Assembly: GCF_040954835.1 (NCBI RefSeq)
Contig: NC_090704.1
Span: 13,103,501 to 13,167,500 of the forward strand
Length of the DNA stretch: 64,000 bases
Source: Lepisosteus oculatus
Taxonomy: Eukaryota > Chordata > Actinopteri > Semionotiformes > Lepisosteidae
Direction of reading: 5' to 3'
Shown piece after piece: positions 4,406-62,614 of the stretch. Below the pieces are notes generated by a model that saw nothing but the letters and a program-made list of their open reading frames with translations, did no database searches and was not told the origin of the DNA. Numbering within the stretch: position 1 is the first letter of the stretch; every line of letters begins with the position of its first letter. The position numbers and the translations under genes were made by a program.

Positions 4406-4968
4406 ATAATAATAATAATATAACAATTCCTTACACTTATATAGCACTTTTCTGAACACTCGACTCAAAGCGCTTTACAGGTAATGGGGACTCCCCTCCA
4501 CCACCACCAATGTGCAGCATCCACCTGGATGATGCGACGGCAGCCATAGTGCACCAGATCGCTCACCACACATCAGCTATCAGTGGGGAGGAGAGCAGAG
4601 TAATAGAGGAGGATTATTAGGAGGCCATTTTCCAATGGGAAATTTGACCAGGACACCAGGGTTAGACCCCTACTCTTTTCGAGAAACACCCTGGGATTTT
4701 TTTAATGACCACAGAGAGTCAGGACCTCGGACCTCTCATCCGAAGGACGGCGCCTGTTGACAGTATAGTGTCCCCGTCACTACACTGGGGCATTAGGACC
4801 CACATGGGCTGCAGGGTGAGTGCCCTCTGTTGGCCCCACTAACACCTCTTACAGCAGCAACCTTAGTTTTTCCCAGGAGGTCTCCAATCCAGGTACTGAC
4901 CAGGCTCACACCTGCTTAGCTTCAGTGGGTTGCCAGTTGTGAGTTGCAGGTTGATATGGCTGCTGGCA
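4406..4968 (-). mobile_element. 5S rRNA-derived SINE (SINE3-type), near full length
   Basis: Read on the minus strand, the head at about 4968-4870 resembles 5S rRNA with its internal promoter: GAAGCTAAGCAG, then GCCTGGTCAGTACCTGGAT and GGAGACC. The body and a tail containing GCGCTTTGAGTCGAGTG and GCTATATAAGTGTAAG follow, ending in a TTA/TAA-rich tail. A 5S head with an unrelated body is the definition of SINE3-class elements. Confidence 0.85.
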
Positions 4969-14860: not shown

Positions 14861-17800
14861 AATACAAAGCAGTGAACATGATATACAGTAATGAATCACA
14901 ATGTACTGTATTTGCATAATGCAGGGTTTGGTTAAGTGTCTTAAAATTCAGTTGCCTTTGAAGTCACTTCGATACTTAATAACAATACTGTGAGAAAACC
15001 ATTTAGAATCTGACAATTGAAAAAATAATCTTTATATTCCAGACCGTAAAACACCCTAATTTCAATAAATCATGATAAACAGTGTGGCTACATTAAAACT
15101 AATGATACAGCTACGTACGTATCTCAATATATAGAAGTTGATTGAATGAGTAAGCTAAATGAGTTGGTGGCATTCCAAGTAGGAGGATGATGTACATTTA
15201 TAATTTTATGTACACACAACTTTTGTCTATTTTAGAGCCAAAACCATGAAAACAAGACTGGGCTGCCTATCCAATAAATCTGATTCTTACAGCGATTTTA
15301 CTGCCTTTCTTTCCCCAAAGACCAAATGCATGAAGTAAGTATGCTGCTTACATATTCGTGTTAGAATGAGGCACTGAAAATATATTTTCAGTTTGTATTG
15401 ATATTGTAAAGTGAGCGACTGAGGCTGACACTTTGAAGTACAAAGAAAGAACTTTTAATGCCTTTTTCATGTACAGAAAGGGCTGTTCCCAAACTGAACT
15501 TTAACTCAAAAATAAAAGAAAGGAGTGCAGGACAGACTTCTTACTCGCAGGTCAGCTCTGTTTCCTTCAGCGTCCCTTTGTTTCCTTGGCAACCACACGA
15601 TTCCCCCTCCCCCGCCTGCCTCTACTGAAGATATAACATCCCCAGGATGTCTTCTCGCCTGACATTTGGCTACCACTATAATATATTGCATATGATTCAA
15701 AGATCGGGTTCTGGACATTTATATCTTAGAATGGGAAAAGTAGGAAAAGTCAGCCATTCTTATGCAGCAGTCTGCCAAGTTACCAGACAAAGATAACTAT
15801 TTAATCTGATTATCCTTAACTTATCCCTAAAGTCAATTAATGTTACTCCTCTTAAATGAACCTTATCTCAGTAACTGAACCTTATCTCAGTTAGACACTT
15901 CTCAGGCTCTACTGTACAATTTGCAGTCTTTAAGGGGTTTAGATCTCTAAAAAGACTCTGATTTCACTCTTGAGCCATGTGCAGGATAACTGTTTTACAC
16001 TTGGTATTAAAGGTGATACTACTGTAGGTTCGGTTTTATCCTATTCTACAGTATACTGTATACTGCATAACTCACATACTGTAAAGACATTCTGTAATGT
16101 AATGAATACACTGTATTCTGCAAGGAAATGAAAAAAATAGCTCATGGATTAGACATAGCCATAGTTACTGTATATACTGTAAATATCTATAATAATAGGC
16201 GAAGCTCAATTTGTTAAATTAATCTACAGTGATTTTACCCAAATTTGCATAAGTCAAGAGAGTTCTAGGGAATCAAGTTATACTGTATAACCTACAGTGT
16301 ACCTCTGTGATACTTCTTTCTTGTCTGTTTAGTTATTGCAATTGTTTAATTTCTCATTATAAGTACTGTGTAACATCTTTTCAGTTTTGCCTGTATTGTT
16401 TCTACTTGTCAGATTTTCAACAGAAGAAGTCATAAGATGGGCTGAATCATTCAATACACTTCTTTCCCATAAATGTACTGTAAGTGGGCTATTCGGTAAG
16501 AATGAAAAAGAAATATTTCTCAAAATAAATTTGAAATATATATGCACGTACATGTTTATAGCTGTTTTTGCTCCGTTCTTGTGATCATTGTTCAAATTAT
16601 TTTTAACAAGCTATAGCTTTTTTTAAAGACATATAAAGGTATATTACAGACACAAAATCAGTCAGACCCACTGCCGGTCATTTGTGATATGATTTAAATT
16701 TAAAACATATAAACACTATACTGTACAAAGTATTTTATACTGTGGAGAAAGATACTTTATTTCTTAATTTCAGTAGAACTTGAAAGTGCATATTCTTTTA
16801 AAAATCTCTGTAATGTTTTATTTAGTATTAAGAGTAATAAATAAAATAACTGTAGGCCACTTCTAATTGGTGGAAGAGTTGATTGTGGTTTCAATCTTAA
16901 GAAAACAAAATGGATGAAAAAAAAACAGTTGTCTTCTAGAAAAGAATATTGTGCCTGTGCAGAAAGCTTTGTTTTCTTCTTTGACCAAAAGAACACTAAA
17001 TGTGTATACCATACACAGTACCACACATTAGAACACATGAATGGTATATATCAAATTTGTACTGTTCGTTCCCAAAGGAGAACAAACACAATGACTATAC
17101 TTTCAGCTATCCCAATTTTTCTTGTATTGACCTGCAAAAAAGAACTCTATTATCTTACAGTAACTTTAAATTACATGAATTTGCTTTACTCTCTCGTCTC
17201 TGTAAAATAGCCTAGGCTCCTTTTCTAAGAGAATCATTAAATTCTTTGCAAATAACAAATTGTGACTATACAAAAGCATTGACTGAACTTGTCTTTTTCA
17301 TATACTGTATTGTTAGTTAATGGTTGGTGAATTTATTTTAAATAGACAAACTTGCGTGACAGTTTTATGGGTACTACAGATGGATTTTGAATTTTAAAAA
17401 AAGGAATATTTTCACAGAAAACAACTGAATCTATTTTTGTGGTGCCCTCCTGTACATCACCATAAAAAATGAAATATATTATTTCAGGTTTAACAATAAA
17501 ATTTTCTATATTTTACATAGACTTGCAGTAACAATGCAAATTGTGTTCCTTGTTATTGGTATTATAATTTATATTTTTTCGCTTATAAAAGATTTATTTT
17601 CAGAAAAAATATATTTTTCTCAATGGAACCATAGTTTTGAGTTGATTGATACTGTTGTCTTAATTAAAAATGCCACAGAAAAAGATTACTTGAAAATGTA
17701 GTCTTGCCAAATTAATAGAAGGGGTCAGAGACTTGTCCTTCCTCTGGAACATTTATTTTAAATGTGTTTTCCAGTCTCACAAAACATTCCGTCAAATTGT

Positions 17801-18644
17801 GTTCCTGAAAAACAGCAGCTGCATAACATAAGCAAAGACAAAATGACAGTCAAGAAGTCCTCTGAGGGATGAGAGGAAACAAGGGACAGTCCCATGATGT
17901 ATTTCAGTCTGTTACCAAAAAAAGATCTGCAATTGGTCTGGAAATCTGAAAATTTCGAAATGTGGACCTTTTGATGTTATACTTGCACAAATCATAATCA
18001 TTTGTTGTAATGCTAGGGTAAGATTTCATTCTTTAGGAGTTGGATAATTGTCCATGTTAAATTCAAGAAGGTTCAGAGTGTGTTGAGAATAAAGTGTTTT
18101 TTATAAATTGAACTTTAATCTTTTGTGCCCGTTTCTGAGCTATGTTTAAACTTAAAAGGTTTGACGGCAGTTACCTATTACAACACATTACTAATTACGT
18201 TTCTGTTAACTTTCTAGATGGCTTGGCTGCATTCAGAGCATTCCTCAAAACTGAGTTCAGTGAGGAAAATATTGAGTTCTGCATGGCCTGTGAGGACTAC
18301 AAACAAACCAAGTCTGCCACAAAACTGATCAACAAAGCCCCAAAAATCTATGAGGAGTTTATAGATTTTCAAGCACCTAGAGAGGTAATTTTACCAGTCA
18401 ACAGCATTTTAAAAACTAGAATCTCAATTTTGGGGATATATCTGTGCAATTTTGGCATCATCACTTGTGTTTTTTTACAAATCCCATGAATCAAACAGGA
18501 GGGAATAAGTATACTTCTGGGTATAATTAACACATTACAGGCAACACAGCCCTGTACTGGAGATTTGGTGCCAACAGCATTTCATACCTGCAAGCATTCA
18601 GGAGACTGCAGGGGTCACTCTCTGTAATACAGAACTAAAATAGC

Positions 18645-18845: not shown

Positions 18846-19878
18846 CTTTTTGATAAGAGTTTAATTAAACTTTAAAAAAATACAACCAGCTCTCAAATAC
18901 TCATGGCCTTTGACTGTACCGGATGGAGGGACAATTGTGCAGTATGCAACTACAGTACAGATCTCCTGAGACAACATGTAATGTGCTTAGCCAGCCAGAC
19001 ACTGTTCACATTCTGTATTGGCCTTATTAGTCATATTTATGCACATGGAAGTCAATCATTCTTGACCACAGGTAACTAACAGACGTCATTTAGTTAAACA
19101 TTAAACGTTTCAAAAAATAAAACATGAAAACTGAAATAGTTGAAAAGTGGTGGTTTTCTATTTTACATTTGAACTGGTTATCTTAATTGCTTTACTATAT
19201 TTTAATGTGTTATTAATCTATATATTATATTGTTAAAATAAATATTAATATTTTAAGATATTTGTGAACAGGTCCTAAATATATGAGAATGTGAACTGTC
19301 GAAACTGTTAATCTTTTTTATATGGGATATTTGATACAGTATATTCTGTTTTCAGTGGAACACAGGCGTTAAACCAGAAAAGATTGAAATACTGTATGCT
19401 GAAATGTATGCTGAAAATCACATGTTTATCTGTGACTTTTATTCAGAAAACAACTGGGGTCAGGTAACAGTATGTTAAGAGGAAATGGACCATTTTGTAC
19501 AATCTATTGAGGGGATTTCTCACCGTGTAAATTCTCGCTGATACTATCTAATACGATTTTGATGTTCTATATCTTAGTGCATCTTGACCCTATGATTGAT
19601 ACTTACATCAAATTTCTGGAGAGAACTAATCTCAGATATTTAAAAGTAGGCAGTCAATGATTAGCACAAGAGGCAGCAGTAGTTATGAATCCAACAGTAG
19701 TTACATGAGTCAATATCTTATGCAATCTTCTTGTGAAACTGGTGTACATAATTACTTTCAAATAAATACATTTGTAATTAAAATAAATTGTGAATTTCTT
19801 CATATGTTGAACAGTGATATGATGTTGAACATAATGATGTTTGCAGATGATGAAATTAGGTCATCACTTCTTCCACAG

Positions 19879-20068
19879 GTGAACATTGACTATCAAACTA
19901 GAGAGATAACTAGGAAAAACCTTCTGGAACCAACCTACTCATGTGATCAGTATGGCCCACGCAAGAGTATACAGCCTGATGGAAAAGGATTCCTATCCAC
20001 GTTTTCTGAGATCAAACATCTACATATATTTACTGAACCAGATGCATTCTCAAAGAAGATGTAATTAG
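19879..20068 (+). pseudogene. rgs8: rgs8 last coding exon with +1 frameshift
   Basis: The acceptor TTCTTCCACAG ends at 19878. The reading frame gives VNIDYQTREITRKNLLEP and then C at 19942-19944. The family motif CFDQAQ should follow, but 10 nt occupy the place of nine. From 19955 the next frame restores [17 protein letters not shown] to the C-terminus. Left unshifted, the frame runs to a TAA at 20062-20064 with an unrelated tail that loses the last RGS-box helices. Confidence 0.85.
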
Positions 20069-20559
20069 AAGGTAGTCCAATAAATACACAATATATTTTT
20101 CAGTATATGTTTGTCCTTGTGTAACCTAAAGATGAAAAATTGAATAAAAGCATTGTTGCTTTCCCATACTGGGTGTGTATAGTCTGGTAATCAAGCACAA
20201 CCTACAGTATATGTTTTAGTTATTACAAATGTTTCTCAGTTGTATATTTGTGTGTTTCATAAAGAAATATTACAAATACTGTTCTTATTACATCTGTTAA
20301 TTTATTTTCCAATACATTTCATTAGAATGAAGTATGTCTATATAGACATGTTAATAGAAAAGTTTAAAAAGTAAGAAAAAGTAGCAATATCATTTCTGGT
20401 ACAGAATATTACACTATGACCTGTAATTGTGCACAGCCACCGTCACAAGGACAAGGCAAGATCTAAATGCAGGACCCAGGTTGAATCGAGAAACTTCTGA
20501 AATCTGAAGGGTGAGAAAAGCAGAGCCAGTTGATGCTGGCAGACAGACAGAAAATCCTG

Positions 20560-20785: not shown

Positions 20786-21020
20786 ATGTTGACTGTTGGT
20801 GAAAGTCAGGATGTCAAAGAAGACGGAGTTTCTAGGATTCATAATCTTGCAAAGCCAGGTTTCTTAAGCAGGCAGGAAATTGCACTCATTATAAGAGCAT
20901 ATTGTAACTCAATGTCAGAGAACTGATTCAGTGGAGATTTGGAACTTGTCTAAATGGAGGGTTGATTGGAAGATTAGGTCCCTGCATAAAAGGGAGACAG
21001 ATGCACAGACAGGCAGCCCG

Positions 21021-21527
21021 TGTTACGATCCCTGCCTCCCGGCAACGGAAGAGGCAGAAGTAGGCGTAACCCCAATCCATCAGTTCACCTATCAGTTTTC
21101 CTATTCACCACCACACCCCCGTCTCATCCTACTTAAACACCTGTCTTTCCCTACCTCTTTGCTCAGTATTGGTTTTCCTTTCGAGCTTCCTGGTTGCGCT
21201 ACTCCTACTTCTACCCTGTGTTTGTCTTGGCTTTCGGTTTACGGTTTTTTCCCTTTTGACTACGGCTTTTCGGATCACGTCTTGGCTTCGTTACTTACGC
21301 TCTGTTTTGGATCACTGGCTACCCCTGGACTATCAGATTGCTCTACTGTCTACGATTTCGGATTACGCTTCGGCTTCGGTAACTCGTTCCCTTTGAATCT
21401 CTGGCTTCCCCTGGACTCTCGGCTCACTCCTTCGACTACGGCTTTCTTTGGATCATGGCTAGGCTTTGTCAGCTCCCGCAAGTGGGTTCACTCACTGGTT
21501 TTGGTCCCTCTTACCGAATCCATAACA
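21021..21527 (+). mobile_element. Solo LTR, Ty3/gypsy-like
   Basis: TGTTACGATC begins and CATAACA ends the element. An exact 5-bp duplication, GCCCG, flanks it (21016-21020 and 21528-21532). A 230-codon frame running through it is a by-product of GC-rich composition and not a gene: its start lies in flanking DNA and its sequence matches no family. Confidence 0.88.
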
Positions 21528-21532
21528 GCCCG

Positions 21533-23649
21533 ACCTGGTCATTACAGGCTCTGGTGGAACGTGGGCTCTCATGGGAAGGCTGAGGTCACCCAGGACAACC
21601 ACAGACACCCAGCCCAGGCATGACACAGAAACCTTAAGACTCATGTACAGTTTCATACGAGCCTTATATTGAGACTTAAAAGGAGTCAAAAAGCAAATAG
21701 TAATGCAATTTTACATCACCAAAACTGTTACTTTTTAACTTTTTAGATGAAGGTGACATTGGGAGAACAAGATGAAAAATACCAAAGTTCTTTGTGAGGA
21801 AAAACTGCTAATAGCTGATAATGTTTTATTTTTTTTATTTTTTACTTTTGTACAGTTTAATGATGCCACTGAAATTGAGATTGCTTTGTTATGAATAATC
21901 TAATCACAACTACAACCATGCCTCTAACAACACGTGCCAACCTTCATATCATACACGACTTACAAACACAATTAGCTTTGTTATCCCTTACTTTTTTTAC
22001 TTAGGACTTTTGAATTTAATTTTAGAAAAACGTTGCTCATTCATAATCAAATTAATGTCATTCCTTAAGCCAAAAGATGCTTTGCAATGCTTTAGAGGAA
22101 ATAAAAATATTTTCATGCATTACTTAATGAACTACGCAAAGTTTTAGTCAAGAAAGATCTAATCATGTTATTACAATCTAGAAGGAAAGAGAATAATGTC
22201 AATTAGTTAATGTAACTCTGGTAGTCAAGGGAAATTCCCAAGTTCACAGTTTGGGTAGACCATAAAATCTCCCATTTCCCAAACAGAACAAAAGATACTA
22301 GGTTACAGTGTGATAAAATAATTAATTATCTCAAAGATGAATTGCTCTTTTCACAGAAATTATTCATATTATAAATACATTTTCAATCAAGTAGTGATAA
22401 GGCTGTAACACTAGGCATTTGACTTGTCACTGTGTTTACAGAGACACACACAAGCGGTGTAATTCCTACAACATTGTGTATCTATGCTTACACAGTCTGC
22501 TATTTTTGTACGTTTATGTAAAAATGAGTTCCAAAGTCCACCCGCCTGTTTGTGAAATGAGTAATGTAGGGTCAATATTAACCGATGAAGTGCTTCAGTT
22601 ATGCTTCATTAGGATCCCAGTATCCTGCAGACTTACAAAACAGGACTGTAGCAATCTAGTCTTCAATCAGACTGAATGAGATAAACCACCAATAATTTCT
22701 CATCTGCTATTTTGGTTGATTAAGGCTGCAGCACAATGAGATCTCCAATTTTCTTGGTCTCCATTCCAATGATTCAAGGTCACATGTGGAATCTTGTGTG
22801 CAAAGGTTTATTCACAATAAAAGATGTCAAACACAGGCATCTTCTCCTGTATATCCAGCATTCTGAAGGTCCTTTTGATGATGTGCTAATGGTGACCTGA
22901 GCAGGATGGTAATGTCTGGATGCTCCTAGTTATGATCTGCTATGGAAGCAGCTATTATAAGATTGTCATTAAACAAATGAGAAACCAATGCATTTGAACA
23001 GCTCTAACTGACTGAGCATCCATTTTAGATTTGACTTTTTTCACCCATTTTGGGGAGTAAGGGAGAAAAGTAGCCATAAACATAGTCTGCCTCATCATTT
23101 CACTGGATAACTACCTCCAGAGACATCACCTTTCTGTGGTTGAAAAATAAAGAAAGAGAGTATTACAATTAAGAGTCTGGAACATCAGGACCGCTATGTA
23201 CTGTCCATACAATGACCAAACAAAAACACACTGCATTTTTGCCCATGAATTCTGGAGAATTCCAGAGATATGACATCGTCTCCTCTTCACTGAGGTGAAA
23301 CCCAACAAGCCAGAGAAGGGAAACTCAAGGAATATTGAATTGGCAATACTTTTCTTCTGGAAAGGAAAATCAGAGCAAAAGTCTTTGTCATCAAGAAAGA
23401 AATTAAGTACCTTAATGAATTCACTATAAGATTTAAAAAGTGTCCCATGATGATTCACCCCAAATTAACAGCGAATCAATGTGCCTCCATGATTTTTGCA
23501 TATGTCCCTATTTTAGATTAAGATGATGAAACCACGGTAAAGTTCCATACCAAAGGTCAACCAAATTCTCAGGTTACTGATCAGTAGCACAGTATTTTCT
23601 GTGCATGGAACAGCAATCCAAATTCTACATAGAAGAAAGGTAGAGGTTC
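21533..23649. other. Intergenic, no gene seen
   Basis: Nothing recognisable. Modest open frames (for example minus strand 23126-23458) have no family signature or splice context. Confidence 0.4.
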
Positions 23650-33481: not shown

Positions 33482-35612
33482 ATGTGCAGAGGGCTTGCAT
33501 CACTACCAACAACATGCCTGGAGAGGTAAGCTTTCTTTTAAATTTATTTTTTATGCATAATGGCAAGTAACCAGCTTTGAATTGCATGGGAGAACAGTAA
33601 TTATAGCACTAATGTTGTAAAAATAGTGATAAGAAATGTTTAAAAAATGATCCAGGTATTACTTAAAAATATTTTCTTGAAATTCTTTAAATGATGAAGC
33701 TTGTAAAATGCAGTAGTAACGTTATAATGTAATACTTATTCCATTATCAATATGTATTTTTTGTTGTTAAGGAAATCTGTATTTTAATGTAAGTGTATGT
33801 ATATAGATGCATTCATGCATATGTATTTATATATAAAAGATATACAGTCATTCATACCGTAGGTAGATGATTGGGCATATTGTGGTCTATTATTATAACT
33901 ACATTTTAATAATTATTCAATTAAAGTTTGTTAAAGACCATAAGAAAATGTTGATACTTTCATTGGGTACAGTGAATTTCTGAACTACATAGAGTATAAT
34001 ATATAATAGCTTGTTATTGTTGTGCATGAGCAAGACCATAAAATTATATACCTTTGTCTTTGATTCTGTTCTTCAGGGCCAAGGAATTAAGGGCACGTTT
34101 GGGCATTTTTTGTCAAAAGGCAGACTCCAGCCATTCTGAATATTCAAACAAAGCAGATCAAGTTAGGTAAGATGTCAAGCAATATCTGATTTAAAATATG
34201 TATCAGAATCATTTTAATTGTAATGACATTCATACAGTAATAGCACATTACATATTACACATCTCAATGCTACAGTACATCTCTTTAGTTCAAACTCTTA
34301 ATCTGTAAATGTCTTAATTTTAAAATGCCAATAATACTTAAGGTCATTATTCAAGATACCAAGTATTTCAAAAGAAAATTAACATTGCTAAATATGGAGT
34401 GACTGTAGTGTCTTAATTATTGAATCAAATCTTACCTTTGAAATTAAGATTTATTTGTATAACCTGTATAAGCAAGTATACAGCTAATTCAGAGAAATGT
34501 AACTAATATTTTATTTATCCTTAGGCCTACTCCTGACGAAGCTTTAAAATGGAAAGAGTCTTTTGAAACACTCTTGAAAAACAAACGTAAGTATTACATT
34601 TCTTTCTATAACATTTATTTTGCCTTCTACATTATTGAAAATTCACATTCTTCAGTTCTCTGATTTTGCCGATGGTTCTTTGCCTCAGCATTTTTAAATT
34701 ATTAGTAAAACTATCATATTTTATGTATAATATACTGTATATTGTATAACAATATGAAAAACATTCATAATTACCATCTTATATGAATATATGAAAATCG
34801 TCATAGTAAGAGATACTTCAGCTCATCTAAAAAAATTCTGAAAGGGAACATCAGAAGAAAAAGAGGGCCTAAGGTCACAACTCTGAACTCCAGATTCAGT
34901 TCAAGAATTTGTGGCCAAGCAGTCTGGCGAAATATATTATTTTGCTGTAAAGTTAATTAGAAGTGGCATGGATAAAAAATGAATAGGCTTTACTTATTGC
35001 ATTTGTTCTACATTCGTTGCTGATATGTTGTTAAACAATAAAAAATGTTCAAATGTTAGATTTTAAAAAAATAAACAATTGTTCTTTTGTCTCTTGAATA
35101 GATGGTTTAGCAACCTTCAGAAAATTCTTGATATTGGAGTTCAGTGAAGAAAACATTGCTTTCTATTTAGCCTGTGAAGACTACAAGATTCCAAAATCAA
35201 CATCAAAGCTGGATGCAATGGCAAAGAAAATTTATGAGGAATTTATTGAAAGTGATGCACCAAGAGAGGTAGGTTTTCCCATTATTATATAGCATATATA
35301 TATTAAATAGCATTAATTCTAATAAGCATCATTTACATTGCACACATATTCTAAGAAAACATTTTCTCATGATTTTTTCTTGTGTCCTTTCCATAGGTCA
35401 ATATCGATCATGAAACAAGAAATATCACAAAGTTCAACCTTGTGAAACCCTCCATTTCGTGTTTTGACTTGGCACAGAATAAAATCTATACTTTAATGGA
35501 GAAAGACTCTTACCCCCGTTTTCTAAGATCAGCGCTCTACCAAGACTTGATCAAAAAGGCCACATACAAAAGTGCCAAGCAGCAAATTTCCAGCAAGAAA
35601 TCTCACACATGA
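33482..35612 (+). CDS. rgs16: Regulator of G-protein signalling 16, complete (5 exons)
   Basis: R4-family RGS protein, expected to act at the inner plasma membrane as a GTPase activator for Galpha-i/o and Galpha-q. Exons: 33482-33525, 34077-34166, 34525-34586, 35102-35268 and 35397-35612. All introns are GT-AG and the 579-nt coding sequence gives 192 residues (human RGS16 has 202). The N-terminus [19 protein letters not shown] has Cys-2 and Cys-12, known palmitoylation sites in RGS4/16, and a basic amphipathic helix. The RGS box spans about residues 54-172, with Asn-83 (SEEN) and Asn-135, the Galpha-contact positions, retained. It closes with [13 protein letters not shown] (154-166). The C-terminus SKKSHT recalls the SHT end of RGS16, which separates it from RGS4 and RGS5; VNIDHET also matches RGS16. 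Tyr-87 replaces the usual Trp. A TATA promoter lies upstream and a poly(A) signal at 36069. Confidence 0.93.
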
Positions 35613-43611: not shown

Positions 43612-44905
43612 CACATCTTCTTCTTCGCATTTTTCCCACTTATGTGGGGTCTGCCTGTTTGCACCGATTTTTCCACTTTGTTCGGTCTGCGGCGTCTCAG
43701 CAGGTGACTTTTTTCAGCCGGTCCAGGCAGCGCATAAATGGTCGTCCACGGGGCCGGCGGCCTTCCACATTCAATTCGAGGGCGGTTTTTCCCATTGATG
43801 TGTCATTGCTGCGGAGCACATGTCCATACCATCCCAGGCGCGATTCCCTCATTTTCCCAGTGATTGGGGCGACTTTGAGTGTTTTTCGCACCTCTTCATT
43901 CATGAACATGGTCTAGTCTTGTCAAGCCGAGGGTCCATCGCAGCATCTTCATTTCCATCGTATGGAGTGCCTGTTCATGTTTCTTTGTCGTTGGCCAGCA
44001 TTCAGTTCCTATAGGGCCACTGGTCTGACCACCGAGCGGTAGACTTTGGATTTTAGGCGCAAAGGGATCTTCTTGTCGCACAGTACTCCAGTGACCTGCC
44101 GCCATTTCATCCAAGCGGCACTGACTCGCGTCTTGGCGTCTTGGAGGGTAGTGCAGTCGGAGTTGACACATGAGCCTAGGTACTTGAACTTGGTCACTTT
44201 GTTCAGCTGGACCCCACCAGCTGCGATTGTGCCTTCGGTTTGAACCCTGCATTCCAGGTACTCCCTCTTCTTGATGTTCAATTTCATCCCGAATCGTTCA
44301 AGGCACGTCTTCCACTCCCGTACTTGCTGTTCGAGGCCGTGTCGCGTTTCACTTGCTACCATAACATCTTCGGCATACAATAGCGTCCATGGATGCCTCA
44401 TTGGATATCCTTGGTCACTGTATCCATGCAAAGTATGAATAGCAGAGGAGACAAGGCTGAGCCTTGGTGGATGCCAACATTGATTGGGAAGGTGTCTGAG
44501 GTTCCAGCGGTGCAATGTACTGAGCTAGCGGCCTTTTGGTACAAGAGCTTTGTCCAGCTGACATAGGCTTTGGGGACATGGTGCTGTCCCAGCGCCAGCC
44601 AGATGAGTGCGGTACCCTGCCTTTTCCAGGTCGAGAAATGCCATGTGGATCGTTTTCCTCTTCTCGTGGTGCCTTCCCATCAGTAGGCGGGCTGCGTGTA
44701 TGGCGTCTATTGTTACGCAGTTTTTCACAGTGCCGCATTGGTTTGACGAGATATCAATGATGATTCTTAGTCGTGCGTCCAGCACACACTCGAAAATCAT
44801 TGTATGGCACAGCAGCCGGATCGGCCTGTAATTGGAGCAGTCATTAACCAAATCAAATCGCCTTTGCCTTTCCAAATTGGCACTGTGATGCCACATAAAC
44901 ATTTA
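43612..44905 (-). mobile_element. RTE-clade non-LTR retrotransposon fossil (reverse transcriptase C-terminal half)
   Basis: On the minus strand several frames joined by frameshifts encode, in order, CSNYRPIRLLCHTM (about 44850), FLDLEKA (44620), a YADDVM-type motif here read as YAEDVMVAS (about 44350), KFKYLGSCVNSD, AAWMKWRQVTGVLCDKKIP (about 44100), VRPVAL, ECWPTTKKHEQAL, MLRWTLGLTRLDHV, then WYGHVLRSNDTS, ELNVEGRRPRGRP and LDRLKK (43700). This series is typical of RTE retroposons. It is 5'-truncated, the catalytic YADD is changed to YAED, and frameshifts make it inactive. The plus-strand frames here are shadows. Confidence 0.88.
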
Positions 44906-59916: not shown

Positions 59917-62462
59917 ATGTGTAAAGGATTAGCAGCCTTGCCCCAAACATGTCTGGAGAGGTGAGAAATAAATTAACTTTTTTTACTGTTTTTTTTTTTA
60001 ATATAATTTCACTTGTGATTACTTGTCTATGCACAAATGTCTTACTTATATTATAAAACACTACCCAGGACATCACAATAAAAGTTAGCATCAATATTAA
60101 ATGTACATTTATTTATCTTTCTCTATATTTTTTCTTCTTTCATTGATAGGGATGTTGTTTATCATAGACTGAGATTCAGTGAATACTTTCTCTTTCTAAA
60201 CTATAAATTGTGCACATCCATGGCAATATGGATAAAAATGGCAAATCTAGAAATAGATTAATCCATAACCATACTTCTGGGAACTTGTGCATAGAACAAC
60301 TAGCAATTCAATAAGAAAATAATAGTTGTCAAATATATATTTTGTCTTGTAATCTTGGATAAACCTAATGATGTTCATTACTATTGTTTCTAATCTGCTT
60401 TGCATAAATAACAAAATTAAATGGAATATTCTCAGCAACAAAAAATTTAACTGTGTATTTTGAAGTACTGTACATCTTGTATCACTCATTATTCTCATTC
60501 ACCTTTTACCAGAATGAGAGTGAAATAAGCAGAAGGGAGATGTACACTTATCTTTCCATAAATGGACAATAAAATATGATTTTGTTTTTAATATTTAATG
60601 TCACATACAATTTAACATGGCTTCTTTTTATGCAAATGTGCATTTTGAGAAATGATTTATGTTTGGTTGGAATGTTTTTGTAACTTCAATGGATCAAAAG
60701 TATTCATCTGCTTTGACTAAAACTAAGGTGATTGAACATAGAACTGATAATATTAATATACTGTACCTGTGTTCAGTAAAATCTCAAAAACCTATCAAAA
60801 ACCTATGTGTAACTCAGATGTTTAGAGAGGTGACATTATGTTTCAACGTTTTCAGGCCTTATTTACATGTACAGCACATAGCACTTTTAAAAAATTGCTT
60901 TTTCTCTAGACAGCTCTGTAAGTTTCATACAAAAGGATCATTGGCCTTTACTTGAAAATCTGTCTTCACTTTTTTTTTTGTTTTAAACCTCTCAGACAAC
61001 TGTTCATTAATATTATTTTTGCACTTCACCATGTTTCTCCTCATAACTCAACAACAAATGGTCCCTACAATGAAAGCCATACGGGTATACATTTGTCTTA
61101 AGCATACTGACAATGTAATGACAGTTTTTCTCTTATGTAATCACATCATTTATTCACACCTTTTGTTTCCATGTTATACCTGCTAAAGGCTTTGTAAGCC
61201 TGTTGCTTATTTTTTGTTGTCAGTTGCATTTCAGCTGTCATTCTTTGCATGGTGCATTTATAATTAATTCATCTCACAGAGGGCTAAAGCCCTATAGCAC
61301 AAATGCATCAAGCAGTACTGTATGTCATTAGGTCAGAAACCACCAGACAAGAAATTCAGTTAGAAGTGTATATATACAGTACTGGTATGGGACTCAATGG
61401 CACATCATCAATCTTTGTCTGCTTAAATCGCAAGATCCTTGCCAAAAAGCTATTTTTAATTCCGGTCATGATGACAAAAGCCCAAAAAATGCTATCTGAC
61501 ATATGAAAAAAGCAGCATATTACAGAAGTAGCAATCTGTAGTGTTAATCAATATGTTGCTGCTCAGTTAGATGTTTAAAAGACGAAAAGTACGTTGTTAG
61601 CATTTGATTTAAATTATAAATGATTTAAGATTTAAGAATGATTAAGAAATGTCTTTATTTGGGTTTTTATATACTTTTTATCTTTCTTTATCCTTTCAAA
61701 TACATCATTTCATAGTGTGAATTCCTTCCACCTCTCTGCTTTCCACAGATGTTGGCTGATATTTTGTTAACATTTTACATGCATGGCATTATGTTTTGTA
61801 TTGTACATATAAGGAAAAGGCCTACTGGATATTTTGCCTTTAAGAGGTCAATTCAATACTTTCCAGAAGAAGGTACCTAAGCAAAACATTTAAAGAAGTT
61901 GTCTATTCTAAATCTTAGAAAATTATATAAAAACCTATTTTTTACTTATTTAGTAGTAGTCTTGTTATAGTCTTATTAAACCAAATGTCATGACACTGTG
62001 TGTATAAGAACAATAATTCTGTTAAATTATGTACATTCTCCCAGTGTTTTTTATTTGAAAATTCTAAACCATGTTAGGCACTTTTTGTAATAATTCATTT
62101 ACAATTTAGATTACATTTCACCAATTCATATTCTGTCTCAAGACTGTGCCTTAATTCATTTTTGTTCCCAAAAAATTCCTTTAAGCACACTCACAGAAAA
62201 ATAATGTAGAGTATTTTAAAGCACTTGCAAACAAGGAAAGGACAAGCAAAAGTTATTAACTAAGTGTATTTCAAAGCTTCTATTACACTTAAAATATGTT
62301 TTCTTGCAATAAAAGTAAATAATGTAAATAATGTAAATCTTTTTTAAGGGCTAAGGAGATCAAGATTAAATTGGGAACTCTGCTTCAAAAGCCAGAGAAT
62401 GCTATTGACCTTATTATCCCCTACCCGGAAAAGCCAGAGAAGAAGCCGGATAAGCCTCAAAA
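59917..62462 (+). CDS. rgs5: Regulator of G-protein signalling 5, first two coding exons (gene continues beyond window)
   Basis: Exon 1 is 59917-59960 ([15 protein letters not shown], 44 nt, the same length and phase as rgs16 exon 1). Exon 2 is 62349-62462 ([17 protein letters not shown], then [18 protein letters not shown]). Both are GT-AG bounded (donors GTGAGA and GTAAGT). Together they give 52 residues, nearly identical in plan to human RGS5 (MCKGLAALP start, [22 protein letters not shown]). Cys-2 and Cys-12 are the lipid-anchor positions, and Cys-2 is the known oxygen-sensing N-degron residue of RGS4/5/16. The RGS-box exons are not in the window. A TATA promoter lies at 59812. Intron 2 contains a family A repeat and a Tc1-like fragment. 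Confidence 0.93.
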
Positions 62463-62614
62463 GTAAGTCATTAAGATGTGTAATGTTTTTAGAAAAAATC
62501 AAATAAAGAGTGTTTAAGTAAAAAGGATTAGGTTGTACAGAAATACCATGGCAGCCACAGGCAATGTGTATCATCTATGGGAGTTTATTATTTCCATTTA
62601 AAAATAGAGTGAAT

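Follow-up and report, generated by a model that had tools for sequence, protein, structure and literature searches.

The window analysed here, a 64,000-nucleotide stretch of Lepisosteus oculatus DNA, carries rgs8, an rgs16-like gene and the start of rgs5, all on the plus strand (Table 1). Exons 2 to 5 of rgs8 are divided by introns with recognisable sites. Over exons 4 and 5, the gene shares 75 of 107 residues with RGS8 and 62 to 64 with RGS16, RGS5, RGS4, RGS3 and RGS2. Thus, the identification of the gene as rgs8 in the initial annotation holds, RGS8 being the best of the six R4 members compared (RGS1, RGS13, RGS18 and RGS21 were left out of this 107-column comparison); for exon 5, RGS8 chains also ranked above RGS1 and RGS18 among PDB matches. 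RGS8 is a G-protein signalling regulator of the R4 subfamily (PDB 2ode, 2ihd, 5do9), and the window gene resembles it both in this identity and in its setting, being followed by the rgs16-like gene on the same strand. Human RGS8 maps to 1q25 and RGS16 to 1q25-q31 (PMC6585022). The window gene differs from RGS8 by a net +1 break in the last exon, a missing F codon and a weak exon 3 donor. No first exon of rgs8 was found in the window, where the first-exon pattern matched only at 33482 and 59917, and a looser pattern gave one more match, at 60819, which is unlike an R4 start. Nor did tblastn matches above 27 bits in the window include a second last exon or first exon of rgs8.

Table 1. Coordinates of the RGS genes and of the sites discussed in the text (window positions).
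Feature	Position	Strand	Description
rgs8 exon 2	15236..15334	+	AKTMKTRLGCLSNKSDSYSDFTAFLSPKTKCMK, with a final codon that continues into exon 3; 72% identical to human RGS8 over 29 aa by tblastn
rgs8 exon 3	16413..16474	+	62 nt, same length as rgs16-like exon 3; tblastn and reading
Displaced donor, probable second lesion	16475..16485	+	GTACTG at the conserved position, GTAAGT at 16480
rgs8 exon 4	18218..18384	+	167 nt, open frame, RGS box core; tblastn and reading
rgs8 last exon, 5' part	19879..19944	+	In frame with exon 4; tblastn and reading
10-nt block with frame break	19945..19954	+	Four additional bases; F codon absent, D and Q codons present
rgs8 last exon, 3' part	19955..20068	+	Other frame, stop TAG 20066-20068
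rgs16-like gene (internal control)	33482..35612	+	Five exons without frame break
rgs5 exons 1 and 2	59917..62463	+	tblastn and reading; rest beyond the window

We used the rgs16-like gene as an internal control. Its exons 1, 2, 4 and 5 were found by tblastn, and exon 3 and the joins by reading the sequence. Its RGS core matches RGS5 at 67 of 107 residues, RGS3 at 65, RGS8 at 64 and RGS16 at 63. The name is uncertain: it was chosen because the gene follows rgs8 and ends in SHT, as human RGS16 does. Under that provisional name, the earlier statement that rgs16 is kept agrees with the five uninterrupted exons. The companion statement on rgs5 stands for exons 1 and 2, the only two within the window, which start at 59917 and contain no frame break.

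Several further elements were seen in the window. A 5S rRNA match of 50.9 bits occupies 4849-4967 on the minus strand, and the longer stretch that follows it resembles what we take to be the body of a fish-type 5S-derived SINE. Reverse transcriptase remnants lie at 44009-44899 on the minus strand, in two open frames with Pfam RVT_1 matches (E 2.5e-05 and 0.017) that are both below the curated cut-off. Just downstream of rgs8, an open frame of 242 residues (20895-21623, plus strand) had no Pfam match at E 0.1. Of the 79 open frames that reach 80 codons or more, 10 were scanned against Pfam, and 8 of these were without a match at E 0.1. Among viral contigs searched for relatives, 37 stretches fitted a pattern and none was confirmed.

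The Frame Break in the Last rgs8 Exon

By reading of the sequence, the last rgs8 exon begins at 19879 with a CAG acceptor directly 5' of it. The frame from this position codes VNIDYQTREITRKNLLEPTYSC, and TGT at 19942-19944 is the last codon that matches RGS8. The match resumes at GCC 19955, one frame over, and continues for 37 residues to the stop. A tblastn search with human RGS8 as query split the match in two, with 69.6% identity over 19876-19944 and 68.6% over 19955-20059, each piece at a listed E of 4e-14; the match to RGS8 is therefore far beyond chance. Residues 42-180 of this query were fully matched by PDB chain 2ode. When a query was read across the break, RGS8 chains were the best 3 of 29 PDB matches. 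A reading-frame break is thus confirmed in the sequence of the last rgs8 exon, at the coordinates first proposed, and the remainder of the exon is, as also proposed, well conserved on either side of it.

What is the nature of the change? The initial annotation had ascribed it to a single +1 event in a 10-nt block. The block reads GATCAGTATG and its RGS8 counterpart has 9 nt (F-D-Q). We removed each of the ten bases in turn and found that 5 or 6 of 9 mismatches remain against TTY GAY CAR in every case, which argues against a single +1 change; with the third codon left free, the best removal still leaves 3 mismatches in 6. Directly after TGT comes a D-Q codon pair, a placement with a chance of 0.0008 given the base composition of the window. 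After this perfect pair, four more bases precede the conserved alanine (net +1), and the codon that is missing specifies an F present in all six R4 sequences compared. Since D-Q stays intact if the F codon was lost and four bases were added, we read the change as minus three plus four in preference to plus one. Alternatively, the same letters could arise from one codon lost and one gained, an in-frame exchange, combined with one wrong base.

We also considered whether a repeat close by had served as template for the added bases, and rejected this: two 5-base words of the site occur within 19881-20070 only at the site itself, and the reverse complements of both are absent from this interval. 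None of the seven repeats listed for 19800-20300 covers the block.

An Odd Donor after Exon 3

Exons 3 and 4 of rgs8 share their lengths, 62 and 167 nt, with the rgs16-like gene, which would fit the R4 exon plan, but the donor of the phase-1 junction after exon 3 is weak. Scored with approximate splice-site frequencies, the GTACTG at the conserved donor position reaches 0.37 bits, and a GTAAGT located 5 nt downstream reaches 6.77 bits. In the rgs16-like gene, GTAAGT is found directly 3' of exon 3. The remaining two rgs8 donors score 8.29 bits (exon 2, whose acceptor and donor were read from the sequence) and 7.56 bits, and the four rgs16-like donors score 8.16 to 10.04 bits. Among the 3677 GTs of the window, 1330 score at least 0.37 bits and 91 at least 6.77 bits; at this density, a donor of at least 6.77 bits is expected by chance within 20 nt in about 3% of cases. 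The odd exon 3 donor, which lies 3.5 kb upstream of the exon 5 block, is a probable second lesion: a 5-nt insertion may have moved the strong GT site downstream, so that splicing is predicted either to fail or to cause a frameshift with premature termination of the protein.

Predicted Products

If the transcript is spliced at the conserved donor, the upstream frame runs past the break for 39 codons, from GAT 19945 to TAA 20062-20064. The resulting product covers positions 1-87 of 117 of the Pfam RGS profile, and no complete RGS box is read in one frame; the last quarter of the domain is out of frame owing to the net +1. This agrees with the earlier proposal that the frame break takes away the final part of the RGS box, the profile being covered to 1-87 of 117 at best. 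Splicing at the 16480 site would put exon 4 out of frame and give a product of 92 residues, with the codon spanning the exon 2 start taken as the first; this product had no Pfam match at E 0.01. The product of the rgs16-like control covers the profile from 1 to 117 of 117. We infer that neither rgs8 product would be a working GTPase-activating protein. The lost part includes a 10-residue segment that, judging by the RGS4 complex, carries G-alpha contacts. RGS4 Asn128 is a G-alpha contact (PMC7572916), and its position is upstream of the rgs8 break, outside the lost part.

No Clear Signal of Decay in Substitutions

Of the 37 columns without variation among the six R4 sequences, 4 are altered in rgs8: C replaces W (in exon 4), Q replaces K, F is missing, and H replaces Q. 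In the rgs16-like gene 2 are altered, with Y in place of W and I in place of K. These W and K columns are the same two in both genes (18218-18384 in rgs8, 35102-35268 in the rgs16-like gene). Of 107 residues, 16 in rgs8 (counting the gap) and 17 in the rgs16-like gene occur in none of the six R4 members. When each of the six R4 members was compared with the other five, departures ranged from 1 of 38 to 7 of 44. Relaxed constraint was therefore rejected as proof of decay, there being no clear excess over either the rgs16-like gene or the six R4 members, and no decay signal is shown in substitutions over the 37 invariant columns and the 107 residues. Two further points weigh against a pseudogene: the frames of exons 2 and 4 are open and their sequence is well conserved, and past the break a 12-residue segment is intact in its own frame. 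Since exons 2 and 4 are open and substitutions are in no clear excess, a real loss could still be a young one.

Discussion

The locus is probably a pseudogene of rgs8, unprocessed and still bearing introns, and not the product of a lone base error. This reading is suggested by a break bracketed by two RGS8 matches, by the compound block and by the odd exon 3 donor. It is also suggested by an RGS profile that is truncated or absent in both predicted products, as against 1-117 in the rgs16-like control, and by the five rgs16-like and two rgs5 exons, in which no frame break was seen. The two putatively disabling lesions, the exon 5 block and the exon 3 donor, are both taken from the assembly sequence. 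A processed copy is ruled out by the retained introns. The locus resembles unprocessed or unitary vertebrate pseudogenes in its kept introns, recognisable exons and more than one likely disabling change.

Could the exon be open and rgs8 functional, the break being an assembly or base-call error? Conservation of the exon on both sides of the break fits an error, and GG (19954-19955) and CCC (19956-19958) adjoin the block, which makes it thinkable that one wrong base there was added to a genuine in-frame exchange. However, one wrong base alone leaves the mismatches described above, the missing F is present in all R4 sequences compared, and a second odd feature lies 3.5 kb away. A cluster of errors in a badly assembled stretch is possible, and on balance we regard the error reading as unlikely. 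The compound block and the distant donor also do not fit the choice originally offered, between a very recent loss and one wrong base. Far less probable still is that the gene remains expressed, either as a shortened protein that acts through its N-terminal part or through +1 ribosomal frameshifting that restores the frame. The break is in the last exon, so that the message would escape nonsense-mediated decay as generally understood, and the upstream frame stays open for 39 more codons. Known +1 frameshift sites, such as that of antizyme, have a stop codon at the break; by eye, there is none here, and the exon 3 donor would also have to splice correctly.

The pseudogene could also be one of several rgs8 copies, a genome-duplication duplicate or a haplotype, with another copy at work. 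This alternative overlaps with the pseudogene reading and is quite conceivable, if somewhat short of even chances. Fish commonly lose one of two duplicates, and the 5S rRNA match in the window heads what looks like a fish-type SINE. Against it, the tblastn matches above 27 bits contain no second rgs8 exon in the window.

The kind of gene decay proposed here is ordinary. With a splice-site change besides the compound block, a true loss can be told from a one-base error more readily than by the frame break on its own. Titles and abstract openings retrieved for rgs8 with pseudogene, fish, cluster, zebrafish or teleost, and gene loss included none on rgs8 loss. Zebrafish rgs8 is among the genes enriched in pancreatic endocrine cells (PMC5360028). 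RGS8 has been studied in mouse models of spinocerebellar ataxia (PMC7858651, PMC4406435), and a search of PMC7858651 for rgs8-deficient mice gave none.

If another rgs8 copy exists, the locus would represent the routine decay of a duplicate. That the species is without any working rgs8 is a tentative and rather doubtful proposition. In that case, the species would manage without a regulator that in other vertebrates is active in Purkinje and pancreatic endocrine cells, and the divergent rgs16-like gene nearby might take over its role. If the loss is real and concerns the only copy, the species would be a natural knockout of the regulator studied in the mouse ataxia models.
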